Shown: piece after piece, positions 23,740 through 61,180 of the stretch
Numbering within the stretch: position 1 is the first letter of the stretch
Layout: each line of letters starts with the position of its first letter
Origin: Lampris incognitus
Taxonomy: Eukaryota > Chordata > Actinopteri > Lampriformes > Lampridae
NCBI RefSeq assembly: GCF_029633865.1
Contig: NC_079211.1
Location: forward strand, 150,595,232 to 150,659,231
DNA: 64,000 nucleotides
Reading direction: 5' to 3'
Made by a program: the position numbers and the translations under genes
The notes under the pieces: model-generated
The model's input: the letters and a program-made list of their open reading frames with translations, nothing else
Told to the model about the DNA's origin: nothing
The model's database searches: none

Positions 23740-24924
23740 GTAAGTAAAAGTACTTGTTGTATTCTTTGCCCTGATATGAAAGAGCCTATATACGCCTCAC
23801 GGTAGATCTACTACACCTCTTTTCCTGTAGGTAAGTGCAAATACATACCCCGATTACAACACATCAGACAATAGGACAGGTGGTGTCGCAGTCATTTACA
23901 AGCAGCCGTTTTGTTTTTTACTGTACGTGATCCAGGTCACATTACAAACCACATGTCCACTTATGAATACTGGTCTGTAAATCAGAATGAGACGTTCTTC
24001 TCCAAGTCGACTTAAACAATGAACTGCAATCATACAAAAGAAAAGACTGCAAAAAAACAGTAAAAATAACGACGATTAAATTGAAGAATCCTAGTTTAAA
24101 ACATTGTAATGAAACCGTCCGACTGCTTCTTCTTGCTTCTGCTACGCATAAATATAAATCCTGATGTGTTTTTCTTTAAGACGACTGCAGTGGAGTATAG
24201 ATATCTGCTCTGAAATGTACTGGAGTAAAAGTCGAGAAAGTGGCTGAAATTTAACGGCGTACAGATACTCGAGAAACGTACCAAAGTAACAAAGTACTTT
24301 TACTTTGTCACTTTCAGCCAAATGGAGAAAAAAAAGTTTGTGAAAGCTGCTGGTGCAAATAAATAATAAGAATAAATAAGAATAAAATGAACGAGAGTAC
24401 AAAGGAAATGACAGAAGTGAGATCTTGTGTAGGCGGTCAGTTCTGAGGTACTGACATGAAAGGCGGGTTCTAGGATACTGTAATATTGTGATACTCATCT
24501 GCTCCGTTTGTTGAGCAACACAGAAAACTGTGGTTACGGTTCAACAAGCTCCCAGATGGGAATTTATGAAGCTGTGAGTGGGAAGCACGTCGTCTATGTG
24601 AGGGAGCGAATGTGCTCAGACAGCATTCTTTGGATAAATAAAGGTTTAAAAAGCCTTTAATTTTCAGCCATGAAAAAGAAAAAAAGAGAAGACAAACTGT
24701 GCGATTATTGGGGGGGGGGGATGCATAGCGGTGGTAGCTCTCCAGCTTCCTTCATTTCTGTTCTGGAATTAAACTTTGCAGGAGCAAAGATTTCTCATTA
24801 TGTTTGCATTCACGCTCCACTTTTTCAACAGCCGTCCACAACACCTGGTTAAACATGACTCTGATAAAGGCCGACAGTGAGCACCCTTTATCCTGAAACA
24901 CATCGACGAAGTTCCAGCATATTC

Positions 24925-24928
<4 letters not shown>
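23740..24928. other. no gene; repeat fragments only
   Basis: At 24,215-24,310 there are ctggagtaaaagtcgagaaa and caaagtacttttactttgtc words of a fish repeat also seen at 22,966. The remainder is unassigned. Confidence 0.4.

Positions 24929-24929
<1 letters not shown>

Positions 24930-24980
<51 letters not shown>
24930..24980. repeat. (TA)n microsatellite
   Basis: About 25 uninterrupted TA dinucleotides next to the Penelope-type repeat. Confidence 0.95.
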
Positions 24981-24983
<3 letters not shown>

Positions 24984-25188
24984 ACACAGATACAGGGAAA
25001 AGATTTTAATACATTGCAGTACAGGCCTGTTTCATGCGTCTCGCACTCATCAGCAGCTGATGTGTTTCAACAAAGAATCATACAGTTACGTTGCCCAGCA
25101 TCACACCCCTAACTTCGGTTGGACAGCGACCAATCAGATGGGGAAACATTCAAACCATAACAACCAATGGGGTAGGTACTTATGATGC
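24979..25188 (-). mobile_element. Penelope-type terminal repeat, minus copy
   Basis: About 210 bp that is the reverse complement of 25,476-25,687. It contains a hammerhead ribozyme core at 25,016-25,057. Assignment to PLE pseudo-LTRs is inference from the ribozyme and from the known occurrence of hammerheads in Penelope-like elements. Confidence 0.65.
25016..25057 (-). ncRNA. hammerhead ribozyme (stem I weakened)
   Basis: On the minus strand: core box CTGATGA, stem II gtgcg-aga-cgcat (last pair G-U), then GAAA, then short palindromic stem III acaggcctgt, cleavage position A in GTA, then ctgc closing stem I. The 5' stem-I strand is gctg instead of gcag, giving one mismatch. All invariant core positions are present. 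It should self-cleave poorly as a monomer, since stem III has only 3 pairs and a 4-base loop. Confidence 0.8.
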
Positions 25189-25475
25189 ACAGCAACAAAT
25201 GGAGGGGTAGAAAACATTACAACCAGTGGGACTGGGGTTTGTTTTGAAAAGCATGTAGGGGCCAGGGCGCTGTGGAAATGGCCCACATTAAAAATATAAC
25301 AAGGTAACTTATGTGAATTATATATTGAGGTGGTGTTGGGGCACAGTTGGAAGGACAGGCAGTTAAAATATTAAAAAATATATTAAAAAACTAATAAATG
25401 TCATATGTGTATCATCTAATGGGGGGGGGAATAATAAAGACGTTTTACTTATAGTTACAAAGGGGATATATTTGT

Positions 25476-25755
25476 GCATCATAAGTACCTACCCCATTGG
25501 TTGTTATGGTTTGAATGTTTCCCCATTTGATTGGTCGCTGTCCAACTGGAATACGGGGTGTGACGCTGGGCAATGCAAACTGCACGATTCTTTGTTGAAC
25601 CACATCAGCAGCTGATGAGTGCGAGACGCACGAAACAGGCCTGTACTGCAGTGTATTAAAATCTTTTTTCCTGTATCTGTGTTGATATTCCGCTCCTTAT
25701 TAGCTGAGCACTCACAACACCATTGACGGTTTCGGGAAAAAAAAACGCTATATAT
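25476..25755 (+). mobile_element. Penelope-type terminal repeat, plus copy
   Basis: Inverted partner of 24,979-25,188, continuing past it into gttgatattccgctccttat, the accattgacggtttcgggaa motif and an (AT)n tract. The same downstream motif recurs near 26,030 and 61,140. It contains the best hammerhead of the window. Confidence 0.65.
25608..25649 (+). ncRNA. hammerhead ribozyme, intact core
   Basis: Stem I 5' strand gcag (25,608-25,611) pairs with ctgc (25,646-25,649). CTGATGA occupies 25,612-25,618. Stem II is gtgcg/cgcac with an aga loop (25,619-25,631). GAAA is at 25,632-25,635. Stem III is aca/tgt around ggcc. The cleavable base is A25,645 in a GTA triplet. Every invariant hammerhead position is satisfied. 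The short self-complementary stem III (acaggcctgt) would also allow a dimeric form. Role (known for such elements): self-cleavage of the retroelement RNA. Confidence 0.88.
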
Positions 25756-25773
25756 ATATATATATATATATAT
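25749..25773. repeat. (AT)n microsatellite
   Basis: Dinucleotide run at the end of the Penelope-type repeat. Confidence 0.9.
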
Positions 25774-25789
25774 GAAAATTTGTTTCTTT

Positions 25790-26075
25790 GTTAAAAGAAA
25801 CAGTCAACGGTAGGGAAAGTGCTCAACAAATAAGGAGCAAAATAATCCAGTCAGTCAAGTGAATTCTCTATGAGACAGTACAAGCCTGTTTCATGACATT
25901 AGCAATCATCAGCTGTCAATAATGAATAGTGTTAATTAATGTTAATATATCTTAATTAATATTGACAGCTGATAACTGCTTATGGCATTAATATTGATAT
26001 TCCGCTCCTCATTTGTTGAGCACTTTTATCAACACCATTGACGGTTTCTGGAAAACGCTATATATGTATATGTGT
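25790..26075. mobile_element. two further, decayed Penelope-type terminal repeats
   Basis: 25,790-25,920 (minus) ends in a decayed hammerhead: 5-bp stem I gacag/ctgtc, CTGATGA, GAAA and stem III acaggcttgt are present, but the 13 bases between CTGATGA and GAAA do not form stem II. 25,945-26,075 (plus) keeps gacagctgata and then jumps to gatattccgctcctcatttg and accattgacggtttctgg, so the ribozyme is lost. Confidence 0.6.
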
Positions 26076-26084
26076 GTGTGTGTA

Positions 26085-26090
<6 letters not shown>

Positions 26091-26132
<42 letters not shown>
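26091..26132. repeat. (CA)n microsatellite
   Basis: About 20 CA dinucleotides. A partial copy of the adjacent MITE end (gggtaacactttataat) follows at 26,136. Confidence 0.95.
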
Positions 26133-26134
<2 letters not shown>

Positions 26135-26161
26135 GGGTAACACTTTATAATATATATACAC

Positions 26162-26673
26162 GGGTAACACTTTATAATTACTACACAAAAGAAGCATTAG
26201 TTAAGTATTAGTAACTACTCAATGCATCATTTGTAAAGCAAGACATGCACCAATGGTTAGTGAGTGTGTTAATAGATGTTTTATAAATACTTATTAATAC
26301 CACAATTTATGATTAATTCATGCACAAATGTACATGTAAATAGTTTGTTAATCATGTACTTTCACTTTCTAAAGGATCTTATGATCTTTTAGGCTTTTGT
26401 GAGTCTCAAGGTGCTGCTGGCCTTTCAGTCTCATGTGTAAATGCTTTGTAGGGCACAGATAGTCCTCACTTTAGATGAGCTCATACAAAATACTTACCCA
26501 ACAACTAGTAACTACCTGAATTAATCATGAATTGCAGTATTAATAAGTATTTATAAAACATCTATTAACACACTCACAAACCACTGGTGTATGCCTTGCT
26601 TTATAAATGATGAATTCAGTAGTTATTAACACTTAACTAATGTTTCATTTGTGTAGTTATCATAAAGTGTTAC
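26162..26673. mobile_element. MITE with ~160-bp terminal inverted repeats
   Basis: Left arm 26,162-26,320 begins gggtaacactttataatta. Right arm 26,517-26,673 is its reverse complement with scattered mismatches, ending cataaagtgttac. Both contain ttaatagatgttttataaat or its complement. No ORF, so it is non-autonomous. Confidence 0.88.
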
Positions 26674-31919: not shown

Positions 31920-33092
31920 TCAAAGTGAAGGGTTCGGTTCTGGGTCCTCTCCTGTTCTCCCTGTACACGCCATCCCTGGGTTCTGTTATTCGCTCGCATG
32001 ACTTCTCTTACCATTGTTATGCTGATGACACCCAGCTGATCTTGTCTTTCCTTCCTCTGATACACAAGTAGAGACACACATTGCTGCGTGCTTGACTGGC
32101 ATCTCGGAGAGGATGGTGACACGTCACCTGAAGCTCAGTCTGGACAAGACAGAGCTGATGTTCCTCCTGGGGAAAGGTTGCCCGCACCGAGACCCGGCCA
32201 TCACCATGACAACACCGTGGTGACGCCAACTCAGACTGTGAGGAATCTGGGTGTGATCCTGGACGACCAACTGTCGTTTGCTGAAAACGTTGCATCGGTT
32301 GCTCGGTCCTGCAGATTTCTCCTCTATAACATCAGGAGGATTCACCCATTCCTCACCGACGAGATGGCACAGGTGCTCATCCAGGCTCTGGTCATCTCCC
32401 GGCTGGACTACGGCAACTCCCTCCTTGCTGGCGCCCCGGCGTCGGCCATCAGACCTCTGGAGCTTGTTCAGAAAGCTGCAGCTCGTCTGGTGTTCAACCG
32501 CCCTAAGTTCTCCCACACACCTCCCCTTCTCATGTCCCTACACTGGCTCCCAGGAGCTGCTCGCATCCAGTTTAAGACTCTGGTGCTAGCCTACAGGGCA
32601 GTGAAAGGAACAGCTCCTTCCTATCTCCAGGCCATGGTCAAGCCCTACACCCCGCCCAACCACTTTGCTCTGCTGCCTCGGGACGCCTGGTTGACCCGTC
32701 GCTCAGAGGCCCCTGCTGCTGATCGACCCGGTCCCGGCTCTGTTCTGTCCTGGCCCCACAGTGGTGGACTGAACTCCCCACTGATGTCAGGACAGCGGAG
32801 TCGCTGCCCATCTTTCGGTGCAGGGTGAAAACTCACCTCTTCAAGAACTACTACCCTGTTACTTGTTCTTTGCACTTAATGTATTCACTCATTTAAAAAA
32901 AAAAAAAAAACCTTTCCTTTTCCTTGTACTTTAGCACTGGTTTTGCTCTTAGATGCTTGTTTAGACGCACTTATGACCTCTGATGACTAGTAGTTTTCCT
33001 GATCTCCTACATTAAATGATGCACTTATTGTAAGTCGCTTTGGATAAAAGCGTCGGCTAAATGACTGTAATGTAATGTAATGAAGGGTGAAG
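31920..33092 (+). pseudogene. L2-like LINE, RT palm to 3' terminus
   Basis: The 5' end begins in the RT at [12 protein letters not shown] (box B), and the catalytic YADDTQ box lies at 32,018. A frame change follows, then 32,088-32,828 encodes VRNLGVILDDQLSFAENV, RRIHPFLTDEMAQ, LVISRLDYGNSLLAG, LELVQKAAARLVFN and SLHWLPGAARIQFKTLVLAY. The 3' UTR ends gtaagtcgctttggataaaa, 'gcgtcggctaaatga' and (ctgtaatgtaatg) repeats, diagnostic of fish L2-like elements. The copy is 5'-truncated with at least two frameshifts. Confidence 0.88.
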
Positions 33093-41357: not shown

Positions 41358-42405
41358 CAGTGTTTCTCAACCGGGGGTCCGCGGACCCCTAGTGGTCCGT
41401 GGTGTAATTGCAAGGGGTCCGTGAAAATAAAATATCTTTAAAAAAAATCCTATGACATTTATAGAAATAGGATTATTTTACTCAAATGTGACTGAGACCT
41501 TTATCTACCTAAACTATAAAGGGTAACAGGACTTTTTTCTCTAATTACATCTGTTTCACAAGTGTAATTTATTGTATTTTAATAAGAGATCTCGCTCCCG
41601 TTTGTATTGTTAAAAGTTACTGCATAAAAATTCAGTTGTTACATATATCTGAAAGTTACTGAATACATATTCTGTTTTGTTACATATATCTGAAAGTTAC
41701 TGAATACATATTCTGTTTTGTTACATATATCTGAAAGTTACTGCATAAGAATTCTGTGTTGTTACATATATCTGAAAGTTACTGAATACATATTCTGTTT
41801 TGTTACATATATCTGAAAGTTACTGAATACATATTCTGTGTTGTTACATATATCTGAAAGTTACTGAATACATATTCTGTTTTGTTACATATATCTGAAA
41901 GTTACTGAATACATATTCTGTGTTGTTACATATATCTGAAACTTACTGAATACATATTCTGTTTTGTTACATATATCTGAAAGTTACTGAATACATATTC
42001 TGTTTTGTTACATATATCTGAAAGTTACTGAATACATATTCTGTTTTGTTACATATATCTGAAAGTTACTGAATACATATTCTGTGTTGTTACATATATC
42101 TGAAAGTTACTGAATACATATTCTGTTTTGTTACACATATCTGAAAGTTACTGAATACATATTCTGTTTTGTTACATATATCTGAAAGTTACTGAATACA
42201 TATTCTGTTTTGTTAACTATATCTAAGTTACAACTGAAAGCTCTTATTTTTGCCCCAAAGAGTGAATAAATGCTATAATTTAAAATGCAGTTTCTACTGT
42301 TTCTATCAAATTGCAACCCCCTCCCCCAAGATCAGGTGGAGGGGTCCTCAGGTAGATCAAAAATACGCAGGGGGTCCAGGACCCCAAAAAGGTTGAGAAC
42401 CACTG
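41358..42405. mobile_element. hAT-type non-autonomous element with 8-bp TSD
   Basis: Termini cagtgtttctcaacc and its near-complement ggttgagaaccactg (14 of 15 bases). The 8-bp target duplication atgtagag is at 41,350-41,357 and 42,406-42,413. TIR sequence and TSD length are those of hAT elements. There is no transposase. The interior is mainly a 41-bp minisatellite. Confidence 0.93.
41638..42211. repeat. minisatellite, 41 bp x 14, inside the hAT element
   Basis: The unit runs gttacatatatctgaaagtt followed by actgaatacatattctgttt and t. The 574 bp equal exactly 14 periods. Variants are tgtgtt for tgtttt, and one unit with actgcataagaattc. Confidence 0.95.

Positions 42406-60864: not shown

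Positions 60865-60898
<34 letters not shown>
60864..60898. repeat. (CT)n(AT)n microsatellite
   Basis: Compound dinucleotide run next to a Penelope-type repeat. Confidence 0.92.
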
Positions 60899-60899
60899 C

Positions 60900-61180
60900 C
60901 AAAATTCACTGGAAAGCCGGTGGTTTCATAAGTGCTCAACAGGGTAAGGAGCAGAGATCGCGTTTTTTTTCCGAAACCATCAACGGTTTCCCAGACCGTA
61001 AACCGTTTGTTTAACCACATTAGCAGCTGATGAGTGCGCAAAGCACGAAACAGGCCTGTACTGCAATGTATTAAAACGTCTTTTTCCTGTATCTCTGTTG
61101 ATATTCTGCTCCTCATTAGTTGAACACTTATTATAATGCCATTGACGGTTTCAGGGGAAAAATGCTATATATTTGTATAT
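60900..61180 (+). mobile_element. Penelope-type terminal repeats
   Basis: 60,900-60,995 is a minus-oriented piece (agtgctcaacagggtaagga, gaaaccatcaacggtttccc). 61,000-61,180 is a plus copy holding a hammerhead, gttgatattctgctcctcat and ccattgacggtttcagg, as at 25,476-25,755. Confidence 0.65.
61023..61064 (+). ncRNA. hammerhead ribozyme, intact core
   Basis: Stem I is gcag (61,023-61,026) with ctgc (61,061-61,064). CTGATGA is at 61,027-61,033. Stem II is gtgc/gcac with loop gcaaa. GAAA is at 61,047-61,050. Stem III is aca/tgt around ggcc, and the cleavage base is A61,060. Compared with 25,608-25,649, stem II differs (4 bp and a 5-base loop) but pairing is kept. Confidence 0.87.

Follow-up and report, generated by a model that had tools for sequence, protein, structure and literature searches.

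Head-to-head 3' ends of a hammerhead-bearing Penelope-like element in Lampris incognitus mostly differ in their tails, suggesting two separately primed cDNAs

Results

Structure of the locus

The stretch of Lampris incognitus DNA analysed here (64,000 nucleotides in full, henceforth the window) contains at 24983-25750 an insertion that is placed between two runs of alternating A and T and that reaches to the end of its tail, at about 25750. A preliminary description of this DNA had recognised two opposed hammerhead-type motifs within inverted arms of about 210 bp. The arms are real (92-93% complementary), pairing 24998-25087 with 25578-25667 (93%) and 25086-25191 with 25473-25578 (92%), and both motifs were recovered, by direct reading, by a descriptor in the case of the plus copy and by alignment in the case of the minus copy. 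The features of this insertion and of two further insertions in the window are the following, with the basis of each assignment in brackets.

24930..24981, no strand: (AT)26 tract, insertion target on the left side (repeat reading)
24983..25473, minus strand: copy A, the last ≈491 nt of a Penelope-like element (PLE), 3' end to the left, tail-less (genome comparison)
25009..25063, minus strand: hammerhead motif of copy A, predicted cut between 25020 and 25019 (covariance model, 72.0 bits, the sequence being in the model)
25474..25686, plus strand: copy B, the last ≈210 nt of the PLE, head to head with copy A at ≈25473 (inverted repeat and copy comparison)
25602..25656, plus strand: hammerhead motif of copy B, predicted cut after A25645 (77.5 bits, the sequence being in the model, and descriptor)
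25688..25750, plus strand: tail of copy B, which includes unit 1 of the leader repeat of the PLE (GCTCC..GAGCACT..ACACCATTGACGG), ending at CGCTA (copy and leader comparison)
25749..25773, no strand: (TA)12.5 tract, insertion target on the right side (repeat reading)
25774..26071, no strand: adjacent insertion of a second, divergent hammerhead-bearing family, near-palindromic (inverted repeat and covariance model)
25868..25922, minus strand: hammerhead-like motif of the second family, divergent, with U-U at the base of stem II (64.5 bits, the sequence being in the model)
60898..61170, no strand: third head-to-head insertion, whose left arm (minus) ends in the ORF start, a third start site, and whose right arm (plus) ends with a tail (copy and leader comparison)
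61017..61071, plus strand: hammerhead motif of the third insertion, with a full core and a different stem-loop II (78.1 bits, the sequence being in the model, and descriptor)

Most of the 40 scored relatives of the insertion at 24983-25750 match its first ≈491 bases only and then continue into further element sequence, and the left part is therefore a 5'-truncated copy in the minus sense; the right ≈210 bases repeat the same 3' end in the opposite orientation. The arms had been taken for PLE terminal repeats; they do not belong to one intact element, and are the 3' ends of two 5'-truncated PLE copies that are fused head to head with their 3' ends outward. This arrangement is already known, and the locus is another example of a published type: the literature already describes PLEs with minimal hammerheads, the dimeric cleavage of these, and terminal repeats that are inverted and in which a tail is optional.

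Other observations made in the window concern the second family, for which a first look at the genome gave 2377 candidates, 40 of them scored, and whose right arm at 25774-26071 consists of a degenerate motif (25959-26004, plus strand, 16.6 bits with the covariance model) fused to a tail like that of the first family. A 157-nt inverted repeat (26164-26320 and 26517-26673, 90% complementary, 196 nt apart) is perhaps a small DNA transposon; a UnaL2 LINE 3' element lies at 33017-33070 (57.9 bits) and a satellite-like array of 15 copies of 41 bp, with 94% matches, at 41613-42231.

The hammerhead motifs and their constraint

In the plus copy, direct reading places CTGATGA at 25612-25618, a stem II of 5 bp with an AGA loop at 25619-25631, GAAA at 25632-25635, the self-complementary ACAGGCCTGT at 25635-25644, A17 at 25645, and a stem I of GCAG/CTGC in which 25608-25611 pair with 25646-25649. 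As originally proposed, all core positions are thus present in this copy (25612-25649, read directly and matched by the descriptor), and the cut predicted after A25645 is the one given in the preliminary description. The minus copy (25016-25057) retains the core bases, which lie in order when aligned to the model, with a G-U at the base of stem II and a U-U mismatch in stem I, and each strand carries one copy in the ribozyme sense.

An explicit hammerhead descriptor matched the window at 25604 and 61019, both on the plus strand, with 0 matches on either strand of 60 first-order Markov copies of the window; the minus copy is missed because of its stem I mismatch. The covariance model was built from 28 motifs of several families, the four window motifs among them, which had been chosen by motif searches, a few of these requiring stems. 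An Rfam search gave no hammerhead match at gathering scores, and a relaxed Rfam search of 24300-26400 gave a weak HH9 match only (RF02275, 25595-25665, plus strand, 20.9 bits against a gathering score of 52, E 0.051), the other matches, mostly on simple repeats, being disregarded.

Constraint on the motif is visible between families, where its three helices covary: 29 cells were changed on both sides as compared to 9.7 after shuffling (0/500 shuffles reaching the observed value), 6/14 helix pairs had changed on both sides (shuffled 3.8), and 89.5% of cells were paired, as compared to 18-43% for slid structures. Covariation counted as further pair types lay within the shuffle range (15 vs 13.3 shuffled, reached in 75/500 shuffles). 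The preliminary description had set itself the test of whether the core is enriched relative to neutral sequence, and across the 103 copies in the main family such enrichment was not clearly seen: conservation amounted to 0.958 for CTGATGA, 0.938 for GAAA, 0.888 for stem-loop II and 0.928 for the downstream sequence, the value for the upstream flank (0.714) not being comparable because many copies break there. The full core is intact in 58/103 copies, and conservation of the core within the family, about equal to that of the 3' flank, matches what should be expected of dead copies.

It had also been suggested that the arms might pair and so mask both motifs, with which the predicted folding agrees: the whole insert is predicted to form a single long hairpin in which both motifs are engaged (-405.5 kcal/mol, z -29 with 20 shuffles). 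In monomer folds of the two motifs of 24983-25750 a competing hairpin hides the core, and the fold of the 61017 motif is partly hammerhead. Cleavage at the 24983-25750 locus is, on these predictions, unlikely, because each strand holds a single ribozyme with a partner of ≈92% complementarity and no same-strand copy with which to form a dimer. Dimeric cleavage at the locus, as previously envisaged, would require a pair in the same orientation and so does not fit the single copy per strand. That the paired ribozymes are a working local device, by which read-through RNA from either strand is cut, could be argued from the core that is kept in both motifs and from their distribution, one per strand; given the long hairpin predicted over both, the concealed core in both monomer folds, the missing same-strand partner and the fact that this copy is one among over a thousand, we consider this reading exceedingly improbable. 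The locus itself is probably inert.

The parent element

A pattern derived from the ribozyme and 3' sequence had 1306 matches at ≤2 mismatches in the 1.48 Gb of genome searched, as compared to 0 for the reversed control. At one locus (L031) the same ends, ≈660 bp each and inverted, flank RT and endonuclease-like frames on one strand; a Tc1-type transposase look-alike was also seen by eye at L031 and, like the UnaL2 LINE end of the window, would suit a fish. An RT query gave 150 scored matches in the genome. The frame at L040 carries a YRDD motif and has 2376 relatives in the protein database, with a best identity of 61% among 120 listed. RVT_1 was found in 2/6 relatives scanned (E 2.1e-6 and 1.9e-5, under the curated cut-off), three of the six having been picked because the search listed PF00078 for them, and GIY-YIG (PF01541) was found downstream of RT in 5/23 relatives (best E 3.6e-4), the motif also being read by alignment. 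No RT or GIY-YIG match resulted when the frames of this genome itself were scanned with Pfam. Nothing useful came from comparing its RT and EN fragments with the sequences in Pfam, NCBIfam and PDB, or from a PDB search with a profile of the relatives.

As judged from these frames, RT and GIY-YIG-like in the fuller copies, the element is Penelope-like, in agreement with the original assignment. It possesses the inverted terminal repeats, 5' truncation, optional tail and AT-rich target of PLEs, and lacks the head-to-tail hammerhead repeats of retrozymes: neighbours <1 kb apart were inverted in 8 cases and direct in 1, among 100 listed pattern matches. Between RT and EN, the L040 and L053 frames contain a Cys-rich segment (CKCC...CPLEGKC) with Cys columns that are invariant in the alignment. 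Such a segment between RT and EN is described as a feature of the Neptune clade (PMC3846280), and by this segment, which precedes the endonuclease, the element appears Neptune-like.

Copy ends lie shortly before the units of a leader repeat

Copies have two main end points, the tail-less end at GTTGATAT and, ≈65 nt later, the tailed end at CGCTA. Among the loci L069-L145, a (TA)n run adjoins 52/64 tail-less and 36/43 tailed ends, as compared to 61/20000 random 24-mers. At L045 and L049 the ORF directly follows the leader with the ribozyme, and the tail corresponds to the stretch just after the ribozyme. The leader contains two related units, GCTCC...GTTGAGCACT...ACCAT, the second of which ends at the probable start codon; each end point precedes a unit by a few bases, the tail-less end preceding unit 1 and the tail end unit 2. 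In the second family, which has a different upstream sequence, the tail-less end falls at the same place relative to unit 1.

The similarity of the two units exceeded all 300 shuffles in 4/7 leaders (L045, 51 vs 33; one L048 leader, 41 vs 33; L049, 37 vs 28; L059, 28 vs 26) and was within the shuffle range in 3/7 (L042, 28 vs 32; L040, 21 vs 26; the other L048 leader, 20 vs 35). Unit 1 is cut short in L040 and L059, and the second L048 leader is rearranged upstream. GCTC/GAGC hairpin potential was seen by eye in both units of the L045, L048 and L049 leaders. Such leader-repeat hairpins could possibly be a binding site of the RT.

Copy ends rarely mark the ribozyme cut

Retrozyme RNAs are described as cut and circularised (PMC7761336, PMC7229834), and, as proposed for retrozymes, the RNA of the present element might be cut by its hammerhead so that the cut ends define new copies; conservation of the core and of the stems across families, together with their covariation, would be in keeping with this. 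The 5' ends of copies fell within the 7 bases around the cut in 1/77 and 0/24 cases (1/101 together), while 32/77 and 13/24 fell within 20 bases at the 5' edge of the ribozyme, including 7/24 and 6/14 for copies without an abutting partner. This 5'-end cluster may in part reflect joining at the palindrome CAGCTG. As regards 3' ends, 110 of the 119 element segments at L069-L145 extend to the tail-less site and 9 stop before it, of which only L090 and L105 do so near the cut, element sequence resuming after a gap in L090. In L105 (394-422) an arm has its 3' end no more than a base or two from the cut, with a T run after it in the sense orientation; this one arm would be in keeping with cleavage. 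Since copies end away from the cut, their ends argue against ribozyme processing of the template, and we consider it highly improbable that cut ends define the copies. Copies seldom start or stop at the cut, which fits the null effect of ribozyme mutants in vitro, as given in PMC11167929.

Mostly one tail per head-to-head pair

The sample was drawn from the first 100 of the 1306 pattern matches, which gave 93 regions, less 11, with the window, L031 and L032 among the 93; it is not random over the genome, because the 100 listed matches all lie on contigs C1-C3. Loci that duplicate another locus, ten in all, were removed prior to counting. A head-to-head pair was counted when its arms were -20 to +60 bases apart and both 3' ends were readable, so that of 81 minus/plus neighbours 45 were counted, 22 being outside the gap rule and 14 having an unreadable 3' end.

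A tail is present on one arm only in 34/39 head-to-head pairs, which represent 39 distinct junctions, a count that is reached by 1/200000 label shuffles. In a held-out sample of 19 further loci, for which the prediction had been fixed beforehand, 6/6 pairs were discordant (p 0.07 alone). The five concordant exceptions among the 39 are tail-less on both arms in L003, L070 and L097 and tailed in L035 and window61; the latter was scored as having two tails, although one of its sides ends at the tail site and the other at the third site, inside the ORF start. A hand tally in which arms split by BLAST were joined gave 37/43 (L037, the second pair of L038 and L125 discordant, L110 concordant). L090, unreadable by rule and discordant when read, stands outside both counts, and L107 was excluded, its right 3' end being located at the limit of the sequence analysed. 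In the second family, read by eye under the same gap rule, 4/5 short-gap pairs were discordant (L007, L046, L072, L128); in the second-family pair of the window itself both arms are tailed, and the right one is degenerate. The presence of a tail on one of the inverted repeats has already been published in qualitative form (PMC3846280), and no earlier count of tail asymmetry was found in the literature searched.

Two other properties of the arms were compared. Arm-to-arm identity showed no significant excess over that of random copies of the same subfamily (0.930 vs 0.923, p 0.25, 21 pairs), and arm identity cannot separate one source RNA from two. The expectation that tailed arms would be shorter than tail-less ones was dropped, as lengths taken by eye had no consistent direction.

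These counts bear on how the two arms are made. Self-priming, in which one cDNA folds back so that both arms derive from one molecule, has been proposed for rotifer Penelope from palindromes at head-to-head junctions (PMC3846280), and here a junction overlap of ≥6 nt occurs in 10/45 counted pairs. Snap-back predicts like ends, whereas the tails differ in 34/39 and 6/6 pairs; in addition, a diagnostic base differs between the arms in 3/19 readable pairs (L003, L037, L092), though later mutation of a single base is possible. Self-priming is therefore regarded as unlikely. A history of two separate insertions, the second copy entering into or beside the first in opposite orientation, might be suspected from the clustering of copies (e.g. 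at L024, L038, L126 and in the window) and from the more than 10 unmatched bases between the arms in 14/45 pairs. Separate events would not be expected to give 31/45 pairs with ≤10 unmatched bases, nor exactly one tail in 30/31 of these, and such a history appears very unlikely.

Discussion

A probable explanation for these insertions is that the element RNA is copied from both nicked target strands, starting at different leader units, that the cDNAs are then joined, and that the RNA remains uncleaved while the ribozymes of the resulting locus are masked. The element RNA would probably start at the 5' edge of the ribozyme. It would be reverse-transcribed from both nicked strands of the target, each strand using another leader unit and priming at a TA that precedes this unit by a few bases; the far ends of the resulting cDNAs would be joined, the template having been used without hammerhead cleavage; both ribozymes of the finished locus, hidden in the hairpin, are predicted to do nothing. 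The unlike ends of the arms are what suggests two separately primed cDNAs, one per target strand. We infer that the two start sites belong to the two units of one leader, used one per strand. The 5/39 concordant pairs count against this explanation, as does the anole system, in which the start site is described as the same between strands (PMC11167929).

Minimal type I hammerheads of PLEs are attributed to Cervera & de la Pena 2014 and Lunse et al. 2017 (both as cited in PMC7761336, PMC7229834 and PMC10085705). The present motifs resemble the minimal hammerheads, as described in these citing papers, in their core, their very short stem III, their position in PLE terminal repeats and their many dispersed copies, and differ from them in that stem III is here a 10-nt palindrome and that the copies are inverted, so that no dimer can form in cis. 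With the metazoan retrozymes, as these are presented in PMC7229834, they share the type I hammerhead and a weak stem III; retrozymes are tandem hammerhead repeats, whereas the insertions found here are mostly inverted or single and come from a coding PLE.

The likeness to rotifer Penelope, to the extent given in PMC3846280, includes head-to-head 3' ends, a tail that is optional on one inverted repeat, an AT-rich target and 5' truncation. That paper infers self-priming, whereas the rule-based counts made here (39 + 6 pairs) favour two separately primed cDNAs. For the anole Poseidon element PAc, PMC11167929 describes that purified protein cuts and extends both strands in vitro, that two start sites bound the tail, and that ribozyme mutants are without effect on insertion. 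The present element is like PAc, as portrayed there, in what appears to be an internal start of reverse transcription at two sites that bound the tail, with both strands cut and extended, and in a hammerhead near the ORF start. According to the same paper, PAc starts 111-118 bp into the ORF, in an AC-rich stem-loop that has no homology with the target, and does so alike on both strands, whereas in the fish element the two starts precede the ORF, each of them standing before one leader unit, at a TA step like those of the (TA)n target.

PMC11167929 and PMC7761336 describe PLE integration and the purpose of the hammerhead as open. More generally, and here only tentatively, since we would put it at somewhat less than an even chance, PLE integration may be a two-primer reaction in which an RNP, perhaps dimeric, carries a leader that has a pair of equivalent start elements, one for each nicked strand, the cDNAs being fused and the hammerhead lying uncut at the extreme 5' end of the template. 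If this were true, the tail would mark the strand that used the second element and would not be an optional decoration. With over a thousand copies in this genome, the inverted repeats become countable evidence, and the difference between their ends speaks for separate priming of two cDNAs and against self-priming; both the two-cDNA and the uncut-template readings are testable with the in vitro system already described and in any genome that is rich in PLEs.
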